Part shown: piece after piece, positions 16,208 through 49,778 of the stretch
Layout of the letters: every line of letters starts with the position of its first letter
How positions within the stretch are numbered: position 1 is the first letter of the stretch
Origin: an uncultured Spirochaetaceae bacterium
Lineage (GTDB): Bacteria > Spirochaetota > Spirochaetia > Sphaerochaetales > Sphaerochaetaceae
DNA length: 49,933 bases
Reading direction: 5' to 3'
NCBI GenBank assembly: GCA_944392985.1
Contig: CALXYL010000016.1
Span: forward strand, 1 to 49,933
Notes under the pieces: generated by a model
Database searches by the model: none
What the model was told of the DNA's origin: nothing
What the model saw: only the letters and a program-made list of their open reading frames with translations
Made by a program: the position numbers and the translations under genes

Positions 16208-17323
16208 ATGGTTGATGAAGCAACAAGGGATAGGATACTGAAAAGGACAGCCACGCTCGGGATCATCTCGAACGCGGCAATCGCTGCCGTGAAGGTCCTT
16301 ATTGGATTTTTGTCTGGATCTGTCGCGATCATGTCAGATGCCGCCAACAACGCTTCTGACATGCTCTCCTCCATCGTAACGATCATGGGCTTCAGCCTGG
16401 CAAAGCGCAAGCCGACGCACACCCACCCCCTTGGATTTGGAAGGATGGAATACATCTCAGCCCTTTTCGTTGCATTCATCGTGCTCTTCACAGGTGGTGC
16501 ATTCTTCAGGACATCCATAGAAAGGATACAGGATCCGAGCCCTGTCACAGTATCCCTCCCGATGCTTCTGGTTCTCATCATCACGATCGCAGTCAAGCTG
16601 GGGCTATGGCGCATCAATCTTGGCAATGGCAGGAAAATCGACAGCGAGGCGCTCTCTGCATCCGGCACGGACGCTCTTTCCGATGCATTGGCGACATCCG
16701 TTACCATCGTGGCCGCAGCCATATCGCTCCTGACGCCATTCCCCGTTGACGGCTGGGCCGGCATCGCCATATCGATATTCATCATGTTTGCAGGCGTGAG
16801 GAGCGTAGTCGGCACAGTCTCCGCAATCGTCGGGGAGCGCCCTTCAAAGGAAACCGTCAAGGAGATCCGCTCGATCATCGCGTGCCATCCACCTCTTTCC
16901 GGCGGCTATGATATCCAGATACATACCTATGGCCCATCAAGGATGATCGGGACATGCAATGTCGAGGTTCCATACGATGCCAGGGGTGAGGAGATATTCG
17001 ATGCCATGACTGATGCACAGGTCGAGATCATGGACAGGATGGGCATCTACTTCACATTCGGGATGTATGCTGTCAATTCAGACAATCCTGTCGTCATCCT
17101 GATGAAGCAGGAGGTGCTGAAAGTGCTGCGTACAGTCTCCTCCTCCGTGATCTCCATCCATGCCTTCCATGTGCACATGGAGGATTCGAGGGTCCATTTC
17201 GATGTCGTCGTGGATTTCTCCCTCACCGATTACGCCGCATTCAGGAAGAAGGCAACAGAGGCACTGACAGAGGCATTCCCGACATACCGCTTCCAGTTCA
17301 ACATCGACCCAGATTACGCGTAG
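16208..17323 (+). CDS. Cation diffusion facilitator (CDF) metal transporter
   Basis: This 371-residue protein has six predicted transmembrane helices and a cytoplasmic C-terminal domain. Helix 2 has the metal site pattern SDAANNASD and helix 5 has SGTDALSDALATS. HTHPLGFGRMEYISALF follows helix 2, as in family members. CDF proteins export divalent metals (Zn, Fe, Mn, Co) by proton exchange. The second metal-site residue of helix 2 is Asn where zinc-specific members usually have His or Asp, so the metal cannot be fixed. The C-terminal tail (residues 295-371) is longer than in short CDFs. It is divergent from yqeC. Confidence 0.9.
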   Translation: MVDEATRDRILKRTATLGIISNAAIAAVKVLIGFLSGSVAIMSDAANNASDMLSSIVTIMGFSLAKRKPTHTHPLGFGRMEYISALFVAFIVLFTGGAFFRTSIERIQDPSPVTVSLPMLLVLIITIAVKLGLWRINLGNGRKIDSEALSASGTDALSDALATSVTIVAAAISLLTPFPVDGWAGIAISIFIMFAGVRSVVGTVSAIVGERPSKETVKEIRSIIACHPPLSGGYDIQIHTYGPSRMIGTCNVEVPYDARGEEIFDAMTDAQVEIMDRMGIYFTFGMYAVNSDNPVVILMKQEVLKVLRTVSSSVISIHAFHVHMEDSRVHFDVVVDFSLTDYAAFRKKATEALTEAFPTYRFQFNIDPDYA

Positions 17324-17442: not shown

Positions 17443-17778
17443 ATGGACGCAAAGCTGCTTCTGAAACTGACAGATGATGATGGATTGCCCTTCTTCGGAC
17501 CGGGTGTTGCTGAGCTGTTTGACCTGATAGAGGAAACAGGATCAGTCAGGCATGCATCTGAGCGGATGGGACTTTCATATTCAAAGGCATGGAAGATGAT
17601 CCGAGGAGCGGAGAAGGCTGTCGGAAAGGAAGCAGTGATGCGCACACAGGGTGGAAAAGGCGGAGGAAGGGCCTCTCTGACAGAAAACGGGAAGAAGCTC
17701 CTTGAAGCCTACAGGAGACTTGAGGCAGAGATGGATGGGCATCTGGCCAGATGCAAAGGAGAGTTCCTTGAAGCGTAG
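17443..17778 (+). CDS. ModE-type HTH regulator lacking the molybdate-binding domain
   Basis: This 111-residue protein is a winged helix-turn-helix of the ModE N-terminal type. VAELFDLIEETGSVRHASERMGLSYSKAWKMI is the HTH, and GGKGGGRASLTENGKKLLEAYRRLE is the characteristic wing and linker. The molbindin domains that sense molybdate in full ModE are missing, so the signal must be sensed in another way. Its gene heads an operon with an ABC transporter and has a strong promoter, which fits local control of metal-oxyanion uptake. Confidence 0.85.
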   Translation: MDAKLLLKLTDDDGLPFFGPGVAELFDLIEETGSVRHASERMGLSYSKAWKMIRGAEKAVGKEAVMRTQGGKGGGRASLTENGKKLLEAYRRLEAEMDGHLARCKGEFLEA

Positions 17779-18781
17779 ACCTCTGACGATCATCACAGCC
17801 CTTGCAATCCTCTATGCCGCAGTAGCAATACTCTCCTTTTCCATCGGACGCTACCCTGTAGGACCATGGGATCTGATACGGATACTGCTTTCGAGGGTAT
17901 TTCCGATCACTCCTGACTGGACGCCGCAGGCTGAATCTGTTGTATTCAGCATCAGGCTGCCGCGCATCATCGCATCCTCGCTGATCGGAGCAGGCCTTTC
18001 CCTCTCTGGACTGATCTTCCAGATCATATTCCGCAATCCAATGGTCTCTCCCGATGTCCTCGGAACATCTACCGGAGCAGGATTCGGTGCCGCACTTGCC
18101 CTGCTATGGGCACTGCCTTCATACACGATGCCTACGGCGGCGTTCATCATGGGTATCGCGGCGGTTCTCCTCGTCTGGCTCATCGCATCAAGAGTGCCAT
18201 CCAACCAGGTGCTTGGTCTCATCCTCGGTGGCATCATGATCAGCTCCCTCTTCCAGTCAGGAACGAGCTTCATCAAGCTGGTGGCAGATCCTGAAGATGA
18301 GCTTCCGGCCATCACATACTTCCTCATGGGGTCGCTATCAGGCGCGGGAATGGATGAAGTGAAGATACTCCTGCCTCCATCGATCATTGCCATTATCCCG
18401 ATGATTCTTCTGTCATGGAGAATGAACCTGCTATCGCTTCCAGAGGAGGAAGCGCTCTCGCTTGGCGTAAGCACGAAGCTGATCAGAGGCATCGCGATCG
18501 CCTCCGCAACGCTGCTTACTGCTTCATCCGTAGCGGTTGCCGGTGTGATCGGATGGGTCGGCCTCGTCATTCCGCATATCACGCGCATGGCTGTCGGATC
18601 CGACGCGAGGAGAACCATTCCCGCATCGCTTCTCCTTGGAGCAGCGTTCCTTACCGCAGTGGATACACTCTCACGCTCGGTCACCTACTCAGAGATACCG
18701 ATCGGCATACTCACCTCATTCATCGGTGCTCCGTTCTTCCTTTATCTGATCGTGAAGGAGGGCAGACGCAATGAGGCTTGA
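17768..18781 (+). CDS. FecCD-family ABC permease, likely molybdate/tungstate
   Basis: This integral membrane protein of about 337 residues has many hydrophobic helices and the BtuC/FecCD signatures RLPRIIASSLIGAGLSLSG, FRNPMVSPDVLGTSTGAGFGA, and GVIGWVGLVIPHITRM. I place the start at TTG 17768, preceded by AAAGGAGAG; upstream ATG codons lie inside the regulator gene in another frame. It overlaps the regulator by 11 bases. Family members import iron chelates, B12 or, in the MolBCA type, molybdate and tungstate. The substrate is inferred from the ModE-like neighbour. Confidence 0.88.
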   Translation: MKRRPLTIITALAILYAAVAILSFSIGRYPVGPWDLIRILLSRVFPITPDWTPQAESVVFSIRLPRIIASSLIGAGLSLSGLIFQIIFRNPMVSPDVLGTSTGAGFGAALALLWALPSYTMPTAAFIMGIAAVLLVWLIASRVPSNQVLGLILGGIMISSLFQSGTSFIKLVADPEDELPAITYFLMGSLSGAGMDEVKILLPPSIIAIIPMILLSWRMNLLSLPEEEALSLGVSTKLIRGIAIASATLLTASSVAVAGVIGWVGLVIPHITRMAVGSDARRTIPASLLLGAAFLTAVDTLSRSVTYSEIPIGILTSFIGAPFFLYLIVKEGRRNEA

Positions 18782-19544
18782 AGCCAATGGACTTTCATTC
18801 AGCTACAGCAGGCGGGATGTGCTCAGCGATATCTCATTCACAATCGAGGACGGCAGATCACTCGCGCTCCTCGGACGGAACGGATCGGGAAAGACAACGC
18901 TGCTGCGGCTTCTTCTTGGCTTCCTGAAACCCGATGAAGGTGAAGTGCTTATCGATGGAAGGAATGCAGAGGAGATGACAGGAAGGGAAAGAGCCAGATG
19001 CATCGCATACATTCCACAGTCCTCCTCATCCGTCTATGCCTACTCCGTCCTGGAAATGGTCATGATGGGATGCGCCCCTGCCCTCTCCATCTTCCAGAAA
19101 CCGGGGAAAGCAGATAGGGAGAAAGCAGAAGAGGCGCTTGAGACCCTTGGCATCCAGGATCTCGGCAGGCGTTCTGTCAATGCAATATCAGGGGGAGAAA
19201 GGCAGCTTGCCCTCATCGCACGCGCCCTCACCCAGAACGCACGTATCCTGCTTCTTGATGAACCGACTTCATCCCTCGATTACTCCAACCAGCTTCTGGT
19301 TATGGAAACGCTGGAAAAGCTCAGGGATAGAGGATACTCAATCCTGTTCTCAACGCATAACCCTGAACAGGCCCTGATGAATGCGACAGATGTCCTCATC
19401 CTGCAGCACCATCGACTTTCCTTCCTGGGCAAGCCGGAAGGGCTTCTTGATGGGGAGAAGCTGGAAAAGCTGTATGGAAGAGGTCTCTGCATAAAGCGCG
19501 TCAACACAGGTGAGAATGAAAGGATCATCTGCATTCCGAGGTAA
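18771..19544 (+). CDS. FecE-type ABC transporter ATPase
   Basis: This 257-residue ATPase has Walker A GRNGSGKT (residues 35-42), signature ISGGERQLALIARAL, Walker B ILLLDEPTSSLDY and the switch His in FSTHNPEQAL. The layout is that of the FecE/BtuD ATPases that pair with FecCD permeases. The ATG overlaps the permease stop by 11 bases. A C-terminal extension of some 25 residues (LYGRGLCIKRVNTGENERIICIPR) is usual for the family. Confidence 0.93.
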   Translation: MRLEANGLSFSYSRRDVLSDISFTIEDGRSLALLGRNGSGKTTLLRLLLGFLKPDEGEVLIDGRNAEEMTGRERARCIAYIPQSSSSVYAYSVLEMVMMGCAPALSIFQKPGKADREKAEEALETLGIQDLGRRSVNAISGGERQLALIARALTQNARILLLDEPTSSLDYSNQLLVMETLEKLRDRGYSILFSTHNPEQALMNATDVLILQHHRLSFLGKPEGLLDGEKLEKLYGRGLCIKRVNTGENERIICIPR

Positions 19545-19546
19545 AC

Positions 19547-20218
19547 ATGTGGTGGGACGAGGAAAGGATCGGATGGTACCGGAGGGCGGCAGAGGAAACA
19601 GGCTTCCATATGGCCCTTGCGGATGCAATAGAACCCTTTCTGCCTAAGGCAGGGAGGATACTTGAGCTCGGCTGCGGTCTGGGATATGTCGCAGAGATAC
19701 TCAGCAGAAGAGGCCATATGATAACAGCCACCGATATAGACGGAAACGCGATCAGGAACGCACGGAAACGCACAGGACTTGATATCTACTCAACCCTTGA
19801 TGCAGAGGCTCCTCTCCCGGATAGCGATGCGATCATCATGCTCTTCTTCGGCAGGCTCGCCGAGAAAAAGGATGCTATGCGCTATCTTGAGCATACGGGA
19901 AGGATCATCTATGTCATATCAGAGCACCGGGGCCAGAGTAGCATGCTGCGGAAAACCGAAGGTGACCCCTCCAGGACGATGCTCTCACTCGATTCGGAGC
20001 CCCGCCTGAAATACACCAGATACCCATTCACTGCTGATTTCGACCAGCCCCTTGCATCCAAGGAGGAAGCTGGAAGATTCATTTCGCGCATGTACGGGGA
20101 AGAGAGAGCATCTGCATACATGCGGTATCTCAGGAAAGATAACGAAGGATATGTGCTCCCGAACAGGAAGCACGCATCAATATTCATCATCGAACATAAA
20201 GGAGGAACAGCAATATGA
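19547..20218 (+). CDS. Class I SAM-dependent methyltransferase inside the ABC operon
   Basis: A 223-residue protein with the SAM-binding motif I ILELGCGLGYVAEIL (about residues 38-52) and an acidic end of strand 2 (TATDID). The C-terminal half is less conserved and contains DSEPRLKYTRYPFTADFDQPL. It starts two bases after the ATPase stop and overlaps the binding-protein gene by four bases, so it is an integral part of the transporter operon. The substrate is unknown; a role in modifying or detoxifying an imported metal or chelator is possible but not shown. Confidence 0.85.
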   Translation: MWWDEERIGWYRRAAEETGFHMALADAIEPFLPKAGRILELGCGLGYVAEILSRRGHMITATDIDGNAIRNARKRTGLDIYSTLDAEAPLPDSDAIIMLFFGRLAEKKDAMRYLEHTGRIIYVISEHRGQSSMLRKTEGDPSRTMLSLDSEPRLKYTRYPFTADFDQPLASKEEAGRFISRMYGEERASAYMRYLRKDNEGYVLPNRKHASIFIIEHKGGTAI

Positions 20219-21240
20219 GGAGAATCATCATTCTGCTTCTTGCGGCAGCGATGCTCATTCCGCTTCCAGCCGTATCATTCACCGACTCGCTGGGACGGAC
20301 CGTGGAGCTTCCGGAGACACTGGAACGGATCGTGCCATCTGGAAACCTGGCACAGCTTGTTCTCTATTCAATCGCACCGGAGAGGATCGTCGGCTGGTCA
20401 TCAAGGCTCTCAGGAAGCGCGGTGGAATACTTTGTGCAGGATGTCGTCAACCTGCCGGTATTCGGCACATTCTATGGAAGGAAGGCGAATCTCAACAAGG
20501 AAGCGCTGATGTCAGCAGATCCAGATGTCGTCATTGACATGGGAGAGATAAAGGGAACAAGGGAGGAGATGGCCGCAGAACTCGATGATCTGCAGAACAG
20601 CATCATGATACCAGTGATCTTCATCGAGGCATATCTAGACAATACCCCCGAAGTCTATCGCACACTGGGAACCCTTCTCGGCAAGGAAGAGAAAGGAGAG
20701 GCGCTTGCCCTGTACGCAGAGGAGGCCATCTCGATGGCAGCCGAAGCAAGGGAAGCTATCAAAGAGCCTGTGACGGTCTACTATTCCTCCTCAGAGGATG
20801 GGCTTGAGGCAATAGCTGAAGGCAATTTCCATGGTGAGGTGATTGAGAAGATCGGAGGAAAGAACATCGTGCCCGCTTCTTTCGGCTCATCATCGAACAA
20901 GGTTTCGATGGAACAGCTCTACATCTGGGACCCCGATGTCATACTGCTATCAGAGGAGGAGGCGTACGAGGACGCCGTTTCCGGCAAGGGCGTATGGAGG
21001 AACCTGAGGGCAGAGGAGGAAGGCAATGTCTACCTTATACCATCAGAGCCGTATCCCTTCCTTGACAGCCCTCCTGCAACAAACAGGATCATAGGAATCT
21101 ACTGGCTTGGCAACCTGCTCTACCCTGATCTCTATCCTGTGGATATCGTGGAAAAGACAAAGGAGTTCTATTCACTGTACTACAGCCATCCTCTCTCTGA
21201 CGAGGAAGCTGCGCAGATCCTCCATCTTGACCTGTTATGA
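20215..21240 (+). CDS. FecB/BtuF-like periplasmic binding protein of the ABC transporter
   Basis: A 341-residue secreted protein with a Sec signal peptide (MRRIIILLLAAAMLIPLPAVSF) and no lipobox cysteine, so it is a soluble periplasmic protein. The mature part begins TDSLGRTVELPETLERIVPSG, as in the class III periplasmic binding proteins of the FecB/TroA type, and contains ADPDVVIDMGEI and WDPDVILLSEEEAY. It delivers the substrate to the permease. The best guess is molybdate or tungstate, judged from the ModE-like gene and the nearby molybdenum hydroxylases, but an iron chelate cannot be excluded. Confidence 0.88.
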   Translation: MRRIIILLLAAAMLIPLPAVSFTDSLGRTVELPETLERIVPSGNLAQLVLYSIAPERIVGWSSRLSGSAVEYFVQDVVNLPVFGTFYGRKANLNKEALMSADPDVVIDMGEIKGTREEMAAELDDLQNSIMIPVIFIEAYLDNTPEVYRTLGTLLGKEEKGEALALYAEEAISMAAEAREAIKEPVTVYYSSSEDGLEAIAEGNFHGEVIEKIGGKNIVPASFGSSSNKVSMEQLYIWDPDVILLSEEEAYEDAVSGKGVWRNLRAEEEGNVYLIPSEPYPFLDSPPATNRIIGIYWLGNLLYPDLYPVDIVEKTKEFYSLYYSHPLSDEEAAQILHLDLL

Positions 21241-30618: not shown

Positions 30619-31308
30619 TCACCCCTTGAAAAGCACCGAGGCAAGATACCTCTTGTAGTCAGCGGAACCGGTGAGATCATCAGTGAAGCTGATCTCCTTC
30701 CATGCATCCGGGCCGCCATAGGCGATACCGGAAGAAGAGACGGCATAGGCATAGACCCCTTCAGAGCGTGCACCGGTAACTGCGGCATGCGCATGGGACG
30801 AACGCGCTATACGAACCGATTCGCCCTCCCTTCCTGCACTCACGGAGAACGAGAGAAGCAGAGCCCTGCATTCCTTCCTGCTGAAATACTCTGCCGCGCT
30901 TTTATGCTTCTCCCCCTTTGTGCACATCAGAGAGACATCCGCCTCTGAGGCAAGAAGCGCAGGAATCATGTAGCTATCAAAGCGCCTGAGCGCGAAATTT
31001 CCGCCTATCGTGGCGCTGTTCCTGAGCTGCAGCGAGGCATCAAAGGCCGCTGCATCCCTGATGAAGGCAGGAACAAGAGCGGAATTCCTTATCTCCTCCA
31101 GCGTTGTCAGGGCCCCGATGATCACTTTTCCATCCTCTTGCCTGATGCCGGAGAGCGGAAGCCCCGTTATATCGATCAGGGGAGCGTCAGCTGCGATTGA
31201 GGATCCGAGGCGCATCACCTCTGTTCCTCCTGCAAGATAATGGGAGCCTTCGAGCTCATGGCGAAGCCTGACAGCCTCTGCCGCATCCGATGGATGGTAG
31301 ATTCTCAC
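30619..31308 (-). CDS. ygfM: YgfM-like FAD-binding subunit
   Basis: A 229-residue protein of the CO-dehydrogenase medium-chain type. HYLAGGTEVMRLG and LQLRNSATIGGNFALRRFDSY are the two FAD loops. The C-terminal domain is shorter than in XdhB-type subunits, as in E. coli YgfM. It should pass electrons from the XdhD large subunit to FAD. GTG at 31308 overlaps the xdhB stop (GTGA), and its own stop overlaps the xdhD GTG. Confidence 0.88.
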   Translation of the reverse strand: MRIYHPSDAAEAVRLRHELEGSHYLAGGTEVMRLGSSIAADAPLIDITGLPLSGIRQEDGKVIIGALTTLEEIRNSALVPAFIRDAAAFDASLQLRNSATIGGNFALRRFDSYMIPALLASEADVSLMCTKGEKHKSAAEYFSRKECRALLLSFSVSAGREGESVRIARSSHAHAAVTGARSEGVYAYAVSSSGIAYGGPDAWKEISFTDDLTGSADYKRYLASVLFKG

Positions 31309-35747: not shown

Positions 35748-36300
35748 TCCTTACTGCCCTGGCAGGCACACCATAGGCAATTGTGCTGTCAGGTATATCA
35801 TGGGTAACGACGCTTCCTGCCCCGATGACAGCGTTGCGCCCGATCGTCACACCGGGATTGATGATGGCACCAGCCCCGATCCAGGCATTCTCACCTATCC
35901 TCACTGGAAGATTGTACTGCAGCCCCTTCATCCTGAGCTCTGGAGACAACGGATGGGATGCGGTCGCAATCGTCACATTCGGCCCTATCATGACATGATC
36001 CTCGATCACTATCGGGGCATCATCGACAAGCGTCAGACCGAAATTGGCATAGACGAAGCTGCCGACTGAAACCTTCATCCCTCCCCAGTTCGCGTAGAAC
36101 GGGGATTCAATGCAGACACTCTCACCGCAGGATGCAAGCATCCGCCGAAGCAGGGAATCCCGTTCGTTCTCGTTTCTCCTGTCGATCCTGTTGTACTCAT
36201 GGACAAGGGCGATACGCTCCCTCTGCACTTCCAGTAAAGATGGATCAGCGGGATCGTATATGACCCCGCTGTCCATTATGCTGTGGATATCCTCGCTCAT
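35737..36300 (-). CDS. Maltose/galactoside-type O-acetyltransferase
   Basis: A 187-residue left-handed beta-helix acetyltransferase of the Maa/LacA/NodL type. An N-terminal helical domain (LLEVQRERIALVHEYNRI) is followed by hexapeptide repeats (IVIEDHVMIGPNVTI, VRIGENAWIGAGAIINPGVTIGRNAVIGAGSVV), with the catalytic His in ATASHPL. It uses acetyl-CoA to acetylate sugars. It starts within the end of ygeY (overlap of four bases), so it is co-transcribed with the ygfK-ssnA-ygeY genes, an unusual companion for them. Confidence 0.9.
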   Translation of the reverse strand: MSEDIHSIMDSGVIYDPADPSLLEVQRERIALVHEYNRIDRRNENERDSLLRRMLASCGESVCIESPFYANWGGMKVSVGSFVYANFGLTLVDDAPIVIEDHVMIGPNVTIATASHPLSPELRMKGLQYNLPVRIGENAWIGAGAIINPGVTIGRNAVIGAGSVVTHDIPDSTIAYGVPARAVRTIS

Positions 36301-37514
36301 TCCTTCCCTTCAAGCACATACGGCAGAAGAGCATAGAACTTCGAGCAGATCACAAGATCCTCAACCCTGTTGATCTCATTCGGAGCATGTGCCTGTGCCT
36401 CATCGCCAGGGCCGAATCCTATTGCGGGGATCCCATGCCGCCCTGTCGTCGCAACAAGGTTAGTGGAGAACGTCCACTTGTCCACAACAGGCTTCCTTCC
36501 GAAGAGATCCTCATAGTCCTTGATGCCCGCCTGCACGAGAGGATGTGACTCATCGAGCTTCCATGTCGGGAAATACAGCTCCTGGGAATACTTCGTGCCG
36601 GTCCATGCGATCTTATCATAATCCGGCATCTCGACGATTATATCATCCACACTGTCTCCAGTTGCCTTAGAGACATACTCCTTCACCTGATTGATGGCAA
36701 GCTCGGCATCCTCGCCCCATGTCAGGCGGCGATCACAGTAGAGCATCGCGTAATCAGGGACGGCGCACTGCGATGGCCCCTTGACGTCGATCTGGGAAAC
36801 GGTGATCGTTCCCTTTCCGAGGAAGTTGTCATCATCTGGCTGGAGATCCTTGTTAAGCTGCTCGATCGCAAGCGCTGCGCGAGCCGCCTTGTATGCCGCG
36901 CTGACACCGCGCTCCGGAGCGGATCCATGGCAGGAGATACCCCTGAGTATGACCCTGATCTCCATCCTTCCCCTGTGACCGCGATAGAGACGGCAGCTGG
37001 TCGGCTCTGTGGAGACGATCATGTCAGGCTTGATCCCCTCTTCCTCGATCATGTATTTCCAGCACATGCCGTCGCAGTCCTCTTCCATTACGGTGAATGT
37101 GAAGTAGATGCTGTATTCTCCGCCATACCCGAGCTCCTTGAGGATGCGGCCTGCTGTGATCATCGAAGCTGCACCGCCCTTCTGGTCAGAACTGCCCCTT
37201 CCCTTCACAAGCCCATCCTCAATGGCGCCTGAGAACGGATCGAAATCCCAGTTCTTGAGGTTTCCGACCTCGACAGTATCGATATGTGCGTCGAATGCCA
37301 GCTTCTTCGGGCCATTGCCGACCCTGCCGACGACGGAGCCAAGTCCCTCGATGCGGACCTCATCGAATCCTGCTTCCTCGCAGAGCTTCACGATGAGGCG
37401 GCATACATCCTCCTCCTTGGAGCTGTAGCTCTTGGTCTTCACCAGCTTCGAAAGATTCTCTGCGGTGTAGTCCCTGTACTTCTCGCCGAGTTCGGCAATC
37501 CTGTCTCTTATCAT
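36297..37514 (-). CDS. ygeY: YgeY, selenium-metabolism-linked M20 hydrolase
   Basis: A 405-residue M20-family metallopeptidase-like hydrolase. Metal ligands are visible in FDAHIDTVEVG, GRGSSDQKGG, EEDCDGM, STEPTS and the C-terminal HAPNEIN. The YgeY subfamily co-occurs with SelD, SsnA and YgfK, and is implicated in anaerobic purine breakdown, probably hydrolysing an amide or ureido intermediate. ATG 37514 is chosen because AAGGAG lies six bases upstream; ATG 37520 is too close to it. It starts 11 bases after the ssnA stop. Confidence 0.94.
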   Translation of the reverse strand: MIRDRIAELGEKYRDYTAENLSKLVKTKSYSSKEEDVCRLIVKLCEEAGFDEVRIEGLGSVVGRVGNGPKKLAFDAHIDTVEVGNLKNWDFDPFSGAIEDGLVKGRGSSDQKGGAASMITAGRILKELGYGGEYSIYFTFTVMEEDCDGMCWKYMIEEEGIKPDMIVSTEPTSCRLYRGHRGRMEIRVILRGISCHGSAPERGVSAAYKAARAALAIEQLNKDLQPDDDNFLGKGTITVSQIDVKGPSQCAVPDYAMLYCDRRLTWGEDAELAINQVKEYVSKATGDSVDDIIVEMPDYDKIAWTGTKYSQELYFPTWKLDESHPLVQAGIKDYEDLFGRKPVVDKWTFSTNLVATTGRHGIPAIGFGPGDEAQAHAPNEINRVEDLVICSKFYALLPYVLEGKE

Positions 37515-37524
37515 AATCATCTCC

Positions 37525-38871
37525 TTATGCTTTGATCCTGTCCGCTCTTTCCCAGACCTCACCAGCCACCCGGCGGGCCTCCTGGAAGATCCGTTCCTCA
37601 TCAAGTTCCGTGAAATGCCTGTTCTCATATACAAGGCGCCCATTCACGATGGTCGACTCAACAGAGCCCGAGCACATGCCCCAGACAAAATGCCCGGCTG
37701 CATTCTCCATCTTCAGCGGTGTCGGCGCTTTGTAATCGAGTATTGCGAGATCCGCCTTGTATCCCTTCTCTACCCGCCCAAAGCGGTAACGGCCCCGGAA
37801 TGCCGACTCAAGCAGGCTGTTCCCTCTTGAGAGCGCCTCCAGGAAATCCTGCGGCCACCAAGGCCCACCAGCATCCTTATGCTTGAAGAACGCGATCTTC
37901 AGCTCCTCGAACATATTGCCGCCGCAGCCATCCGTTCCGATGACGAGCTTCTTCACCCTATCCAGATACGGGAAGTACCCGACGTGGTTGTTCATGTTGG
38001 AGCGTCCATTATGGGCTAGGAAGCATCCCCTCTCATTCAGAAGATCCACCTCCTTCCCGGAAAGAGCGACACCATGGACAAGGAGCGTGTTCTCACCAAG
38101 AAGAGAGAACCTGTCGAGCCGCGTCATTATGTCATCACCATGGGCATGATGGGACCAGACGCTGTCATACTTGTCCTCAGCTACATGGAGGTGCATTCCT
38201 CTTCCGGTCCTGTGGATAGCCTCCGACATCAGGGCAAGCGCCTCATCCGGGAGGGTGAAAGGAGCATGGCCTCCGATCATCGCCTCAACAAGGATATCAT
38301 TGCCGCCAGATGCCTTGGCATCGACTTCCTCAGCGAAGCGGATGTTCTCCTCAACGCCTTCCTCTGCTTCCTTCATGCCACCATTGCGGTCAGTCACCTC
38401 ATAGCATGTGACACCATGAAGGCCTACCTCCTCCATGCCTCTGGCAATCGCGGAGAGAGAGCCTTTTATGAACGACGGGGAAGCATGGTGATCAACGACA
38501 CCCGTTGTCCCCTGCCTGATTGCCTCCATGGAGCAGATAAGCGACGAGTAGTAGATCGCCTCCTCATCGAGGGCCCTGTCCAGTCTCCACCACCACTCCT
38601 TGAGGACCTGGATGAAATCAGTCTGGGGACCTGCGGAGATCAACATTCCACGGGACAGCCCTGAATAGTAATGATGATGGGCACAGACATTGCCGGGAAT
38701 GAGAATCCTTCCAGTGCCATCGATCGTTTTTGCCGCCGTTATCCCTTCCCCGGCCCCTTTGCCGGCCTTCTCGATCACGCTTCCGGTAATGACGACATCT
38801 GCATTCTCTGTCACGGAGAATGGAGGCATCGTCTCCATGATCGTGATGTTCTTTATGAGGATATCTGCCAT
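37525..38871 (-). CDS. ssnA: SsnA, amidohydrolase / putative aminohydrolase
   Basis: A 448-residue amidohydrolase of the cytosine/guanine deaminase type. Metal-binding residues are in NVCAHHHYYSGLSRG, the middle HLHVAED, LLVHGVALS and the late IGTDGCGGNMFEE. SsnA is part of the selenium-molybdenum hydroxylase gene set and is thought to open or deaminate a purine-derived ring. ATG 38871 lies directly after the ygfK stop (TGATATG), so the genes are coupled. The length matches E. coli SsnA (442). Confidence 0.93.
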   Translation of the reverse strand: MADILIKNITIMETMPPFSVTENADVVITGSVIEKAGKGAGEGITAAKTIDGTGRILIPGNVCAHHHYYSGLSRGMLISAGPQTDFIQVLKEWWWRLDRALDEEAIYYSSLICSMEAIRQGTTGVVDHHASPSFIKGSLSAIARGMEEVGLHGVTCYEVTDRNGGMKEAEEGVEENIRFAEEVDAKASGGNDILVEAMIGGHAPFTLPDEALALMSEAIHRTGRGMHLHVAEDKYDSVWSHHAHGDDIMTRLDRFSLLGENTLLVHGVALSGKEVDLLNERGCFLAHNGRSNMNNHVGYFPYLDRVKKLVIGTDGCGGNMFEELKIAFFKHKDAGGPWWPQDFLEALSRGNSLLESAFRGRYRFGRVEKGYKADLAILDYKAPTPLKMENAAGHFVWGMCSGSVESTIVNGRLVYENRHFTELDEERIFQEARRVAGEVWERADRIKA

Positions 38872-38872
38872 A

Positions 38873-41800
38873 TCACTCCTCCACAGTGCCAAGCAGGTAC
38901 GGATATGAGAGGAACACCTCCTCTATAATCGCCCTGATCTCATCCGGAACGTCAGCTTCAAGCGTGCCGTCCTTGCCTATCCTTCCTTCGATGATCCTGC
39001 CATCAAGCCTGATCGTCACCTCATCATTCTCAGCGATGAAGCCGCTGTTGCTGCTGCCGTCGAAATCCTCACGGAGCGAGAAGAGCGTGAACTTATCCTT
39101 ATACGGGCGTCCGGAATGGGGGCAGAAGGAGGCGCAGTTGCCGCATTCATTGCAGTATGCATCGACATGGAGTACCTGATAGGGATCCTCGAACAGCCCT
39201 GTTTCCCTCAGGTCGATTGCTACATTCGCCCTGTTCGGACAGACATCCACGCACTTCAGGCAGAGATAGGAGCACTCCATGCATCTGCTGGCTTCCGTGG
39301 CGGCAAATGCCTCATCGTTCACGTCCAAAGAAGGTGTGATGCGGCTCTTCTTCCCTGCAATGTCCTCGAAGAAGCAATCCTCAGCCTCCCTTAGCTCCTC
39401 ATCGCTTTCCGCATCCTCTTCCTCATCGTCCTCTTCATCATGGTGGTGATGATGGCCGCACTCGCACTCCTCGCCTTCTTCATGGTGATGACCGCAGCAG
39501 CACTCCTCCTCGTCCTCATCTTCCTCCACATAGGATTCATAGACCATGTCGATGGCCTTATCCACGGCATCGCGGGCTGAGGCCATGGCGCGGACAACGG
39601 TTGAAGGCCCTGTTGCCGCATCTCCGATGATGAATACGCCATCATCCTCACCTTTTCCGCAGGAAAGAGCTCCAAGCACAGCAGCATCAGCTTTCTCCCC
39701 GATAGCGGCGATGACGGAATCCACCTTGATGGTGGCAGTGCGTCCAGTGTCCACAGGGCGCCTGCGGCCTGAGGCATCCGCCTCTCCTAGCTCCATCTCC
39801 TTCACGCGGAGGATGCCGTCAGTGAAGTCATCAGGAGAGGAAAGGAACATGAAGCTGATTCCTTCAGCCTTCGCTTCCAGGTATTCCTCCCTATCGGCTG
39901 GCATCTCACTTTCAGTACGGCGGTAGACAACGGTCACGCTTTCGACTCCGGCCATCCTCTTGGCCATCCTCGCCGCATCCATTGCAGTATTCCCGCCGCC
40001 GATCACTGCAACATGCCTGCCAAGCTGGATATCATCGCCGCGCTTGGCCTTGAGGAGGAATGAGACAGCGCTCTCCACTGGGCCATTGCCGGAAATGCCA
40101 GGATCGTTCGACTTCTCTGCGCCGACTGAGATGAAGATATAGCCATAGCCATCTTCCTTCAGCTCCTTCACGGTCTTTTCCGTATTGAAGTGGAAATGGA
40201 CTCCTGACTTCTCGATGAAGGATACATCCTTGTCTATGACTGATGATGGGATGCGGAATTCAGGAATGGTGCTGCGCACGACTCCTCCCGCGCTTCCCGA
40301 ACGCTCGAATACGGAAGTATCGAATCCTGCGCGTGCAAGGAAGAGCGCAGCGGAAAGGCCCGCAGGTCCCGCTCCTATCACAGCGGCTTTGATATCCGCG
40401 CTCCCGTCTCCCTTGTCCCATATATCACGGAGGAACTCATCCATTCCCTTCTCCGCCGCAAGCCTCTTGATGCTCCTGATCTGCACCGGGCCTTCGTAAT
40501 CAAGGCGTGTGCAGTGGTTCTGGCACTGATGATCACAGATCCATCCGGTTATATTAGGCAATGCATTCTTCAGATAGATAAGGCCTATCGCCTCCGCCCA
40601 GCGTCCTTCACCTGCCAGCGCGATGTAATCAGGGATATCCTGATGTATCGGGCATGACTCGACACAAGGCGCGACAAAGCAGTCTGTCAAAGGCAGTGCA
40701 GAAGAGAGCTTCGCCCTGTATGGCTCGGGGCTTTCCTTCTGGAATGCCGGATCGCTGTCTGCACGTTCCACCAGCGCTCTGAGCAGGGATGTATCCACCT
40801 TTCCCATATCCCAGCCACTTCTTTCCCTGAGGATATCCGCGATCTGCTTCATGCGGGTGTACCCACCGGGATGGAGCATATCAGTCGCTATCGTGATCGG
40901 CCTTATTCCGGCATCGAAGATATCACCGGCATTCAACGCGCTCGCTCCGCCTGAATAGGAGATCGGAAGATTGCCATCGAATTCCTCTGAGAGCAGCAGC
41001 GCCAGGCGTATTGAAAGCGGAAAGAGCGCGCGGCCTGACATATACTTCTCGCTGCCTGGAAGCACTGTCCCATCATTTGCAGTCCCAAGTGTATTCGTCA
41101 GCTTGACTCCGAATCCCCTTCCCTCCGCTGCAGCGAGGGCCTTAAGGCGATGAAGCATCGGCAGAGCCGCCTCCAGCTTGAGATCATGTTCAAAGCTGAC
41201 GCGGTTAAGGACGATGTATCCGAATCCATGGCTGTCAAGGACACTGCGTACCTTATCATATCCAAGGAGCGTGGGATTCAGCTTCACGAAGGTATCGAAA
41301 TGCTTCTCCTTCAGCATGTATGTGCAGATTGCCTCGATCTCGTCAGGTGGACACCCATGCATTGTGGATATCGTCACTGATGGGGAGATACGAGGGGATA
41401 TCCTCTTCAGTTCAGAACGGATACGCAAAGCACTCTCCTCAAAGACCGTCCCCTCGAAGATATTGTCCTCAAGAAGTGATTCCGCCTCTGCAATGTAATC
41501 ATCAAAGAGATCGCCGGATGCATCGGAGATGGTATTGATGAATGTCTGCATCCTCTCCTGCTTGATGCCTTCCAGATTGTAGCCGACGGAAGCATTGAAT
41601 ATGAATGAGGGCTTCTCCTGGATCCTTCCTTTCATCGCGCCTTCAAGGATATGGAGGATGATCCATGCCTTGATGTACTCGTCAGCCGCCTTCTCAAGCG
41701 TGAACTCCGTCGACCACTCGACGTTGTACCCCTCATCACGGGCATCGATGCATGGTTTCTCGATCTCTAGCCTATCCATGATCTGAACAGTCTTGAGCTC

Positions 41801-42040
41801 AATGAAACGCGCACCTGAAAGATATGCCGCGATGATGTTCTGGGCAAGCTGCGTATGCGGTCCGGCTGCCGGCCCGACAGGAACGCTGCACTCCTGTAAG
41901 AACACCTTTGCCTTCTTCCTTCCCCTGTCCTCAAAGAAGAGGGAGGAATCGATGCCGAAGATCGACCCATGGTTCCTTAGCTCGCCTGCAATCCTCTCAA
42001 GAAGTCCCGAAAACGGCACTGGTCTCATCCTGTCTGACAT
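38873..42040 (-). CDS. ygfK: YgfK, putative selenate reductase/flavoprotein with a Cys/His/acidic insert
   Basis: A 1055-residue multidomain oxidoreductase. The N-terminal ~440 residues are a TIM-barrel-like part (SVPVGPAAGPHTQLAQN, STMHGCPPDEIEAI). A GltD-like Fe-S region follows (CVESCPIHQ, CDHQCQNHC), then two dinucleotide folds (VIGAGPAGLSAALFLARAG, VIGGGNTAMDAARMAKR), then a C-terminal ferredoxin part (CMECSYLCLKCVDVCPNRA, CNECGNCASFCP). Between the flavin and ferredoxin parts lies an unusual run (residues about 839-882): long Glu/Asp stretches around CCCGHHH (847-853) and CECGHHHHH (859-867). ATG 42040 follows GAAGGAG. It heads the ygfK-ssnA-ygeY-acetyltransferase operon. YgfK is required for anaerobic urate breakdown in some gut bacteria; its exact reaction is unsettled. 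Confidence 0.93.
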   Translation of the reverse strand: MSDRMRPVPFSGLLERIAGELRNHGSIFGIDSSLFFEDRGRKKAKVFLQECSVPVGPAAGPHTQLAQNIIAAYLSGARFIELKTVQIMDRLEIEKPCIDARDEGYNVEWSTEFTLEKAADEYIKAWIILHILEGAMKGRIQEKPSFIFNASVGYNLEGIKQERMQTFINTISDASGDLFDDYIAEAESLLEDNIFEGTVFEESALRIRSELKRISPRISPSVTISTMHGCPPDEIEAICTYMLKEKHFDTFVKLNPTLLGYDKVRSVLDSHGFGYIVLNRVSFEHDLKLEAALPMLHRLKALAAAEGRGFGVKLTNTLGTANDGTVLPGSEKYMSGRALFPLSIRLALLLSEEFDGNLPISYSGGASALNAGDIFDAGIRPITIATDMLHPGGYTRMKQIADILRERSGWDMGKVDTSLLRALVERADSDPAFQKESPEPYRAKLSSALPLTDCFVAPCVESCPIHQDIPDYIALAGEGRWAEAIGLIYLKNALPNITGWICDHQCQNHCTRLDYEGPVQIRSIKRLAAEKGMDEFLRDIWDKGDGSADIKAAVIGAGPAGLSAALFLARAGFDTSVFERSGSAGGVVRSTIPEFRIPSSVIDKDVSFIEKSGVHFHFNTEKTVKELKEDGYGYIFISVGAEKSNDPGISGNGPVESAVSFLLKAKRGDDIQLGRHVAVIGGGNTAMDAARMAKRMAGVESVTVVYRRTESEMPADREEYLEAKAEGISFMFLSSPDDFTDGILRVKEMELGEADASGRRRPVDTGRTATIKVDSVIAAIGEKADAAVLGALSCGKGEDDGVFIIGDAATGPSTVVRAMASARDAVDKAIDMVYESYVEEDEDEEECCCGHHHEEGEECECGHHHHHDEEDDEEEDAESDEELREAEDCFFEDIAGKKSRITPSLDVNDEAFAATEASRCMECSYLCLKCVDVCPNRANVAIDLRETGLFEDPYQVLHVDAYCNECGNCASFCPHSGRPYKDKFTLFSLREDFDGSSNSGFIAENDEVTIRLDGRIIEGRIGKDGTLEADVPDEIRAIIEEVFLSYPYLLGTVEE

Positions 42041-42061
42041 AAGCACTCCTTCTCAATTACG

Positions 42062-42983: not shown

Positions 42984-43910
42984 ATGAAGGAGCATGCGTT
43001 GCCAGAGCAGATATCAATCCATGACATTGAGACAAGGAGCGTGCTGACCAAGTCCAATCTTCCAGTCGCTGATTACTCAGTCAATCCATACGTCGGATGC
43101 GCGCATGGCTGCAGATACTGCTATGCCTCCTTCATGAAGAGGTTCACGAATCATCCTGAGCCCTGGGGATCCTTTGTTGACGTCAAGCACTGGCCAGCGA
43201 TAAGGCATCCAGAGAGGTACAGGGACAAGGAGCTCTTCATCGGCTCGGTTACCGATCCGTACCAGCCTTGCGAGGAGATGTACAGGAGGACAAGGGCACT
43301 GCTGGAAGAGATGCAAGGAAGTGGATGCAGGATCAGCATCGCAACAAAATCCGATCTCGTGCTGCGTGATCTCGATCTTCTAAGGACATTTCCAGGAGCG
43401 CGCGTCTCCTTCTCGATCAACACTCTCAGTGAATCCTTCCGGAAGGAGATGGATGATGCGGTCTCAATCAAAAGGAGACTTGAGGCGATGAGGATACTCC
43501 ATAGCGAAGGCATAAGGACAACATGCTTCATCTCCCCCATCTTCCCGGGGATCACGGACGCAGAGGCAATAATCCTGGAGTCAAAGGACTGCTGCAATCT
43601 CATATGGCTTGAGAACCTGAACCTCCGCGGAGGATACAGAAAGACGATACTTGACTACATATCCTCAAAACATCCGGATCTTGTACCTCTTTATGAGGAT
43701 ATCTATGCCCATGGGGATCGCCGCTACTGGTATGAGCTCGACATGAGGATGCAGGACTTCACAGAGAAGGAAGGGCTTCCATACCTGAGGAATGACGACA
43801 CGATGAGAAGGCCATTCGAGGCGCCTCCTGTTGTCGTGAACTACTTCTTCCATGAGGAAGTAAGGAAATCAGCGAAGAAGGAGCACATCAGATCCTTCCA
43901 TGACGAATGA
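42984..43910 (+). CDS. SPL-family radical SAM protein
   Basis: A 308-residue radical SAM protein with the cluster motif C39-x3-C43-x2-C46 in VGCAHGCRYCYASF. The segment NPYVGCAHGCRYCYASFMKR followed by GSFVDVKHWP is typical of the Rv2578c/spore-photoproduct-lyase-like group. It also resembles the B member of the radical SAM mobile pair, but no A partner is present here. It uses SAM and a [4Fe-4S] cluster; the substrate is unknown. The region upstream (42870-42960) is markedly AT-rich compared with the rest of the window. Confidence 0.88.
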   Translation: MKEHALPEQISIHDIETRSVLTKSNLPVADYSVNPYVGCAHGCRYCYASFMKRFTNHPEPWGSFVDVKHWPAIRHPERYRDKELFIGSVTDPYQPCEEMYRRTRALLEEMQGSGCRISIATKSDLVLRDLDLLRTFPGARVSFSINTLSESFRKEMDDAVSIKRRLEAMRILHSEGIRTTCFISPIFPGITDAEAIILESKDCCNLIWLENLNLRGGYRKTILDYISSKHPDLVPLYEDIYAHGDRRYWYELDMRMQDFTEKEGLPYLRNDDTMRRPFEAPPVVVNYFFHEEVRKSAKKEHIRSFHDE

Positions 43911-47985: not shown

Positions 47986-49778
47986 ATCGAGTAGGAGGTA
48001 TCTGAGAAGATAAACCTCTCAGAATCCCGTCCTCTCACACCATCGTACATACCGGTCGGTATACGGCGGTTCCTAAATCTCGGCATGTACCCTCTGGTAC
48101 ACGTCATACAGGAACGTATAGCCTGCTCTTCGGAGCAGGTTGTTGTTAACCCATTTGCTTACCTGGTGGAACCCGGAAAATGCCCAGAATCCCTGTCTTG
48201 CGTTGGCAACCTTGAGGGCATCTTCATACGGAGCTTTGCAGTTCTTGGTGAAGAATGCATATCTTGAGCGTGGCCTCCAGTACCTTTTGAATATCAGGCA
48301 TCTGATGCGACGCCTCAGCCATTCATCAAGCGCTTGCAATTTCTTCTTTGCGTTGGCATATCTGAAGTAGCTCACCCATCCGGTTATCTTCTGCGAGAGT
48401 TTCACCTTCAACTGTTCCCAGCTGAGATTGCTCTTTCTCGCAGTAATCTCTTTCAGGGCGTTCTTCATCTTCACCATACTCTTCTCATGGATACTCAGAG
48501 CTATCTTACCTTCATTGTTCCGCCAGAATGAGTGTCCAAGGAATTTGACGTTGTCAGTTATCTTCCTGACCACAGTCTTCTCCCTGTTCACTCTCAGCTT
48601 CAGCTTGTTCTCGATGAATCTCGTGGTGCTCTCCATGATCCTCTCCGCAGAGCGTTTGCTCTTAGCGAATATCATCATGTCATCTGCATACCGGACGAAT
48701 CTCAACCCTCTCTTCTCCAGTTCCTTGTCGCATCGGTCGAGCATGATGTTCGCGAGTATCGGCGAGAGGGGGCCTCCTTGCGGTATTCCCTGTTCACTGC
48801 CTATCACTACTCCATCTGGCATCACGACTCCTGCCTTCATGAACTTATAGAGAAGGGAGATGACCCTTCCGTCTTTCACCGTCTGGCTTACCATCTCCAG
48901 TAATTTGCTCTGCGGTACTGTATCAAAATATTTCTCAAGGTCCATGTCGACTACCCATTCATACCCATCATTCGCATACTGGATGCATCTTCTGAGGGCA
49001 TCATGGGCACTCCGTCCCGGTCTGAATCCGAAACTGCTGTCGCTGAACATCGGTTCATATATCCATGACAGTACCGTTGCTACAGCCTGCTGTACTCCTC
49101 TGTCTATGACAGTGGGTATCCCAAGGCTTCTTGTCTTCCCGTTATCCTTCGGTATTTCCACCCTTTTGACAGGTGTAGGTCTGTATGTCCTTCCTAACAG
49201 CGCTTCCCTTATCTCCTGCCAGTGCTTATGGAAATATGGCATGAGTTCATCACACGTCATTCCATCCACTCCGGCTGAGCCTTTGTTGGACGCTACCTTC
49301 CGGAAGGCATCTTCCATCGTCTTATAGGAGACGATGAACGACATCGTCTCGTTCCTGAGGGCAATGTCTCCGTTCCTGATGGCTCTTTCATCGCTGGACT
49401 TTCCCTCCGGTTCCTTCTCCATCCATCTTCGGCGGTACTATGACCTCTGCTGACTTCTCGCCATTCGTTGTTACTACGCTGTCATAAGCGATGTTGCAGC
49501 CTCGGCGCTGGCGAGACCTCACTGGGTAAGATCCATTGCTTTCGCCCCATATAGCCTATGCCATCTACGTTCATGGATTCCGTGCAGTGTTGGCTTTCGC
49601 CCTGTTTGGCAGGCTCATCCATCCATGTACGCCTCACTCGGCATAAGCCCGTGGCTTTGCCTACAGCTTCCTTCAGATTCCACCTCGCGATGGACACCCT
49701 TGCTGTTCAGCTAGAGATAAGCACTGCAACTCTCTCAAGGGTCTTTCACCCTCTAGCAATAAATCATGCCAGTCACAC
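47986..49778 (-). mobile_element. Group IIC intron, complete
   Basis: The minus-strand RNA begins GTGTGACTGGCATG at 49778 and has domain I landmarks shared with the Oceanobacillus iheyensis class IIC intron: AGAGGGTGAAAG, AAGGGTGTCC, GGAATCTGAAGGAAGC, and GAAGTCAGCAGAGGTCAT just before the coding frame. Domain V lies at about 48010-48062 (GCCGTATACCGACCGGTATG, GGTGTGAGAGG), and the 3' end is CTCCTACTCGAT at about 47986. Length is about 1793 nt. It encodes a maturase in domain IV and lies directly after a terminator hairpin, the preferred target of class IIC introns. The 3' boundary is accurate to a few bases. Confidence 0.82.
48073..49422 (-). CDS. ltrA: Group II intron reverse transcriptase/maturase
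   Basis: A 449-residue protein with the reverse transcriptase domain (KGSAGVDGMTCDELMPY, SFGFRPGRSAHDAL, EQGIPQGGPLSPILANIMLD, catalytic YADD at 245-248) and the maturase X domain (LGHSFWRNNEGKIALSIHEKS, then KITGWVSYFRYANAKKKL). There is no C-terminal HNH endonuclease, as in class IIC introns, which insert without target cleavage by an endonuclease. It helps the intron fold, splice and reverse-transcribe. The ATG at 49422 has no strong Shine-Dalgarno. Confidence 0.95.
   Translation of the reverse strand: MEKEPEGKSSDERAIRNGDIALRNETMSFIVSYKTMEDAFRKVASNKGSAGVDGMTCDELMPYFHKHWQEIREALLGRTYRPTPVKRVEIPKDNGKTRSLGIPTVIDRGVQQAVATVLSWIYEPMFSDSSFGFRPGRSAHDALRRCIQYANDGYEWVVDMDLEKYFDTVPQSKLLEMVSQTVKDGRVISLLYKFMKAGVVMPDGVVIGSEQGIPQGGPLSPILANIMLDRCDKELEKRGLRFVRYADDMMIFAKSKRSAERIMESTTRFIENKLKLRVNREKTVVRKITDNVKFLGHSFWRNNEGKIALSIHEKSMVKMKNALKEITARKSNLSWEQLKVKLSQKITGWVSYFRYANAKKKLQALDEWLRRRIRCLIFKRYWRPRSRYAFFTKNCKAPYEDALKVANARQGFWAFSGFHQVSKWVNNNLLRRAGYTFLYDVYQRVHAEI

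Follow-up and report, generated by a model that had tools for sequence, protein, structure and literature searches.

Why should an enzyme of purine breakdown carry a tract of cysteine, histidine and acidic residues between two of its domains? The question is raised by a 49,933-nucleotide stretch of DNA from an uncultured Spirochaetaceae bacterium (GTDB family Sphaerochaetaceae; assembly GCA_944392985.1, contig CALXYL010000016.1, positions 1 to 49,933; hereafter the window), in which the enzyme YgfK contains such an insert. The reading put forward here is that the insert is a lineage-specific, disordered, low-affinity metal buffer carried on YgfK, probably for zinc, and this reading as a whole is given about an even chance of being right.

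Codons 841-884 of ygfK (frame 42046..38873) translate to EEDEDEEECCCGHHHEEGEECECGHHHHHDEEDDEEEDAESDEE. These 44 residues include 5 Cys, 8 His and 26 Asp or Glu, His, Cys, Asp and Glu together making up 39 of the 44, and they hold two related units, ECCCGHHH and ECECGHHHHH, with Cys codons that are TGC. A count of 13 Cys and His is reached in none of 100,000 random 44-residue draws from YgfK (maximum 9), nor by the best 44-residue window in any of 2,000 shuffled YgfK proteins. The insert is flanked by the flavin adenine dinucleotide (FAD)/NAD(P)H part, with a Pyr_redox_2 match extending to residue 824, and by the C-terminal dicluster ferredoxin part, which begins at residue 922. A preliminary description of this DNA had reported the two motifs in a Glu/Asp-rich stretch of some 44 residues between the flavin and ferredoxin parts. 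Translation, composition and shuffles agree with the first point and the Pfam domain borders with the second, and its remark that a tract of this kind is not known from E. coli YgfK is borne out by an alignment of the linkers, in which the E. coli protein lacks the insert.

The host protein, 1057 residues long, scores 1261.8 bits against the family model TIGR03315 (cut-off 835.3), with profile positions 1-1012 covered. Pfam matches, invariant columns and fold matches give the part order barrel, FAD/NAD(P)H and C-terminal iron-sulfur (Fe-S), with the conserved Cys kept. E. coli YgfK is a flavin/Fe-S yanthine reductase that uses NAD(P)H (PMC12507026), and as its homologue the window protein would be expected to have the same activity. 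The ATG at 42040 is a more likely start than the frame's first codon at 42046, and the protein is expected to reside in the cytoplasm. An AlphaFold2 model built on 60 relatives, taken from genome loci only, has a mean predicted local distance difference test score (pLDDT) of 89.0 and a predicted template modelling score (pTM) of 0.85. Residues 847-877 form its only segment with pLDDT below 50 besides the first three residues, and the insert is predicted to be intrinsically disordered. The fold comparison returns expected relatives only (NfnABC/StnABC, GltD, dihydropyrimidine dehydrogenase (DPD) and DHODH). Residues 458-909 of the model superpose on residues 84-862 of DPD (Z score 34.3, root-mean-square deviation 2.7, 381 residues aligned); judged from the superposition ranges only, the flavin mononucleotide (FMN) barrel of DPD apparently sits at the junction that bears the insert in YgfK, whereas the barrel-like part of YgfK is N-terminal.

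The gene ygfK is found in 48 of 48 genomes of the genus, and the linkers between fixed anchors were compared there and more widely. A CxC motif is present in every one of the 46 YgfK linkers that could be read in the genus, in 32 of 40 linkers from elsewhere in Sphaerochaetaceae and in none of 107 from outside the family, E. coli included. The outside set covers other Spirochaetota, Pseudomonadota, Bacillota, Cloacimonadota, Calditrichota, Chloroflexota and others, after exclusion of 15 named records assigned to Sphaerochaetaceae. In the alignment, linkers of the genus are 92-130 residues long and mostly hold one to five tandem units of the form [DE]-C-x-C-G-H-x-H within an acidic bed. Among 212 CxC sites, Gly stands at +3 in 128 and His at +4, +5 and +6 in 115-118, while x is any of nine different residues; the typical unit is E-C-x-C-G-H-H-H. 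The strict pattern EC.CGH.H occurs in 39 of the 48 genomes, and its reversed control in none. The most extreme form, the linker of L078 (genome G125), has 23 Cys and is nearly metallothionein-like, and that of L058 is rich in His and Asp. The alignment of homologues proposed in the preliminary description thus shows the insert kept, with varying copy number, in the genus as a whole and in the majority of the family. Close relatives without the insert, named there as evidence against a function if nothing else changed, are limited to a few family members in which it is eroded or lost; they touch that objection only marginally. On a tree built without the linker, the strict Cys-and-His label takes 10 changes compared with 23.5 in shuffles, which fits an early gain followed by several erosions, on a tree with weakly supported deep branches, where a few long ones come together.

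The codons of the insert are under purifying selection. Over 14 pairs of relatives, the proportions of synonymous and nonsynonymous differences (pS and pN) are 0.77 and 0.108 in the insert (pN/pS 0.14), a ratio that may be underestimated since aligning a repetitive region favours matches; the flanking domains give pS/pN of 0.56/0.090 and 0.58/0.060 (pN/pS 0.10-0.16). Pairs with closely similar inserts agree (L018/L019, pS 0.31 and pN 0.00; L020/L021, pS 0.89 and pN 0.05). Of the 176 aligned Cys and His codons, 94 are identical, 55 synonymous and 27 replaced. A functionless, neutral expansion by replication slippage, the low-complexity alternative of the preliminary description, would suit the one to five copies and the variable linker length in the genus. 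It is nevertheless rejected as the whole story because the pN/pS of the insert resembles that of folded domains; the DNA units are moreover diverged, with weak tandem repeats confined to the acid-coding parts and none spanning the Cys/His units, and the insert is retained in nearly every species of many genera. Slippage may have been a route by which units were added, and is very unlikely to be more than that. The same codons bear on a second alternative, a charged flexible tether in which the acidic linker gives the C-terminal [4Fe-4S] domain freedom to move or aids solubility, with Cys and His tolerated as metal-free passengers. The predicted disorder agrees with a tether, and acidity is more constant than Cys and His, only the acidic part being retained in L073 and L084. 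Passengers would be expected to drift, however, yet 149 of the 176 Cys/His codons are kept while synonymous sites are near saturation and the CxCG order recurs at 128 of the 212 CxC sites; exposed Cys is also costly unless used, and a tether alone is judged unlikely.

An extra fixed redox centre, either an Fe-S cluster or a structural zinc site in the electron path from the flavin to the C-terminal clusters, would make use of Cys in a loop between these domains, but the number and spacing of the Cys vary widely among relatives, down to one, the other domains already hold a full invariant Cys set and the stretch is predicted to be disordered, which makes this the least probable explanation considered. 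Scarcely better placed is a site that binds or transfers selenium (as selenite, selenide or selenosulfide) for the nearby selenium-dependent molybdenum hydroxylases. Cys could bind selenium, and the window contains selD, a cysteine-desulfurase-like gene, yqeB, yqeC and two hydroxylase sets; against this, the His and acidic residues, which are not selenium ligands, are as constant as the Cys, E. coli and others have ygfK amid the same selenium genes without the insert, and YgfK is itself a purine-ring reductase (PMC12507026). A buffer for nickel, cobalt, copper or iron in place of zinc is improbable to a lesser degree: SlyD-like tails bind nickel besides zinc (PMC7055735), but ZnuA and a COG0523 GTPase are the further proteins that bear such tracts in relatives, though proteins of the COG0523 group may also deal with different metals. 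Supply of nickel to [NiFe]-hydrogenase does not explain the insert in general, because HypB is absent from the window's genome and present in just two members of the genus. The metal or selenium site suggested in the preliminary description therefore stands in part: the tract is of a metal-binding type, conserved, selected and predicted to be disordered, and none of the findings points to selenium.

The preference for zinc within the metal-buffer reading draws on similar tracts on other proteins, for which the window's genome was searched by pattern and by family. The codon pattern H[HD]H[HD]H occurs at only two places in this genome, YgfK and the C-terminus of a tetratricopeptide repeat (TPR) protein, the gene for which lies just upstream of two genes taken for tsaE and tsaB. 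TPR orthologues with such tails, carrying up to seven Cys/His units, occur in genera g1, g2 and g22, the tails being longer in genera other than that of the window. The TPR protein is a candidate cytoplasmic metal-binding protein of Sphaerochaetaceae. The remaining CxCGH-like matches in the genome are a zinc-finger-like site in an apparent AccD, or random or out-of-frame open reading frames; when the pattern was relaxed to CxCxHxH and applied to 75 genomes, most matches were due to chance, and only those with CGH were followed. The idea that the TPR tail takes over where YgfK has lost its insert fits G138, in which the YgfK of its genus (L089) has no insert and the TPR protein has seven Cys/His units, but it is not put forward as a rule, since the window's genome carries both. 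In genome G051, where the YgfK linker is acidic only with its Cys and His lost, two other proteins carry tracts, ZnuA with a very long loop (also given as HDHDHDHECTCGHEHNH...HECCGHDH) that includes ECTCGHEH, and a CobW/COG0523 GTPase. The lineage thus appears to place such tracts on recognised zinc-handling proteins, which is circumstantial and the best pointer to zinc.

In the proposed mechanism, CxCGHxH units, the number of which evolves freely, would loosely bind several divalent metal ions, zinc first, and YgfK would in this way also buffer metal locally. SsnA, encoded adjacently and, in E. coli, coupled to YgfK in catalysis, would be the most probable client, followed by YgeY. The product of E. 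coli YgfK is seen only with SsnA present, in an assay that contained ZnCl2 (PMC12507026). SsnA has relatives among the metal-dependent amidohydrolases and YgeY among the M20 metallohydrolases, and ssnA adjoins ygfK in 19 of 19 Sphaerochaetaceae loci. A metal buffer, for zinc, near SsnA and YgeY is favoured because of this coupling in the presence of ZnCl2, the adjacency of ssnA and the metallohydrolase relatives of both proteins. Service to the neighbouring molybdenum hydroxylases, as first supposed, finds no support; SsnA and YgeY would be the nearest plausible metal clients because E. coli YgfK works coupled to SsnA. Since E. coli performs the chemistry without the loop, any benefit would concern the supply of metal or protection.

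What we infer from these observations differs in strength from step to step. The loop quite likely binds metal in the cell, and zinc is slightly favoured as the main metal bound; local metal buffering as the role for which the loop was selected is evenly poised, and direct delivery of metal from the loop to SsnA, the weakest step, is doubtful. Equally speculative is a two-job protein in Sphaerochaetaceae that would reduce the purine ring and also carry zinc on its loop to SsnA, perhaps to YgeY, substrate and metal cofactor then coming from one protein in a single location. Several observations weigh against the metal-buffer reading. E. coli YgfK and all YgfK proteins outside the family work or persist without the loop, so catalysis does not demand it, and ssnA adjoins ygfK in E. 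coli too, so SsnA as such does not require it. Within the family, L073 and L084 have lost the Cys and His from an acidic linker, and L089, L147 and L314 have YgfK without the insert. No function is assigned to the TPR protein with the shared motif, and the ZnuA of the window's own genome has a short, ordinary His loop (EEDHHHHE) with no CxCGH, so that the link to zinc comes from a relative.

Table 1. Location of the YgfK insert, its host gene, proposed clients and proteins with comparable tracts
Feature	Position	Strand	Basis	Genome
ygfK, yanthine reductase homologue bearing the insert	38873..42046	-	TIGR03315, 1261.8 bits; homologues align from residue 3	window
Acidic Cys/His insert of YgfK, residues 841-884	39395..39526	-	translation, composition; occurs across genus	window
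Unit 1, ECCCGHHH, residues 848-855	39482..39505	-	translation and pattern search	window
Unit 2, ECECGHHHHH, residues 860-869	39440..39469	-	translation and pattern search	window
Predicted disordered stretch, residues 847-877, pLDDT <50	39416..39508	-	AlphaFold2 model	window
Predicted helix preceding loop, residues 817-844	39515..39598	-	AlphaFold2 model	window
Predicted helix following loop, residues 874-900	39347..39427	-	AlphaFold2 model	window
C-terminal 4Fe-4S dicluster part, residues 922-977	39116..39283	-	Pfam Fer4_9, below gathering score; Cys invariant	window
ssnA, metallo-amidohydrolase, coupled partner of YgfK, proposed metal client	37525..38892	-	TIGR03314, 532 bits; adjoins ygfK	window
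ygeY, M20 metallohydrolase, possible second client	36297..37643	-	NF009555, 498.5 bits; structural relatives	window
TPR protein, acidic C-terminal tail ending ...EEDECNCGHHHHH	L219:2480-3775	-	codon-pattern search	own genome, contig C14
ZnuA with very long HDHDHDHECTCGHEH...HECCGHDH loop	L210:1129-2307			G051
CobW/COG0523 GTPase with long His/Asp/Glu tract	L262:209-1531			G051

The surroundings of ygfK hold much of a reductive uric acid pathway, with ygeW, selD, yedE, a desulfurase-like gene, an XdhC-like gene, two hydroxylase sets, ygeY and ssnA between 21282 and 38892. A YgeX-like lyase is encoded outside the window (contig C24) and scores just below the NCBI cut-off (522.6 compared with 532.25). 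The YgfM-like FAD-binding subunit (30619-31308, minus strand) is short at 229 residues, scores 76 bits where the family cut-off is 241.5 and is possibly a diverged subunit. Near yqeB and yqeC lies a cation diffusion facilitator gene for metal efflux (16208-17323, plus strand), the protein of which has no Cys/His tract; it is followed by genes for a BtuCD-like ABC transporter and a periplasmic binding protein (17702-21240), indicative of metal or cofactor traffic. Also near the uric acid cluster, a radical SAM mobile pair protein B (42984-43910, plus strand) and a group II intron maturase (48073-49422, minus strand) are signs of mobile DNA.

Metal buffering and chaperoning usually fall to dedicated proteins or to tails on transporters and insertion GTPases, while the tract described here has apparently been grafted, across an entire bacterial family, onto a catabolic flavo-iron-sulfur enzyme that acts alongside metallohydrolases. 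If it binds zinc, YgfK would illustrate how metal supply can be part of a pathway enzyme itself, in a route, anaerobic uric acid breakdown, that is now of medical interest. A published description of the insert was not found in the literature searched, most subscription journals being outside the scope of that search.

Compared with known systems, E. coli YgfK has the same domain order and family model and likewise adjoins ssnA, but in its linker, which is shorter by about 40 residues, the acidic Cys/His tract is absent. The closest parallels to the tract are found on other hosts, and YgfK has no Pfam match to the FKBP-type isomerase domain, PF01297 (ZnuA) or PF02492 (G3E GTPase). The C-terminal tail of SlyD has no fixed structure, abounds in His, Cys, Asp and Glu, differs between orthologues and binds several Ni or Zn ions (PMC7055735). 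The insert resembles it in composition, disorder and variability, with metal binding predicted, but SlyD is an FKBP-type isomerase with a terminal tail, while the YgfK tract is internal and sits in a flavo-Fe-S reductase. The His-rich loop of ZnuA is internal, disordered, acidic and of variable length, and binds zinc with low affinity (PMC4542158); the YgfK loop is likewise internal and disordered, and the ECTCGHEH of the G051 ZnuA brings the two closer, but ZnuA is a periplasmic zinc carrier and YgfK is expected to be cytoplasmic. His stretches of COG0523/CobW, HypB and UreG are optional, vary by lineage and are read as pointing to a role as metallochaperone or in storage (PMC2770081), but they sit on metal-insertion GTPases, whereas YgfK is catabolic and its unit includes CxC. 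A metallothionein, which should be small and largely Cys, does not match a 44-residue insert with 5 Cys in a 1057-residue enzyme. The insert has the composition (39 of 44 residues), low pLDDT (below 50) and variable linker length (92-130 residues) of a disordered His/Cys/acidic appendage, a functional kind with no formal family, and by analogy it may work like the SlyD tail or the ZnuA loop while being a member of neither family. The kind of appendage is already known; in the literature searched, no description was found of this enzyme as its host, of its internal position or of a CxCGHxH unit within a purine reductase.
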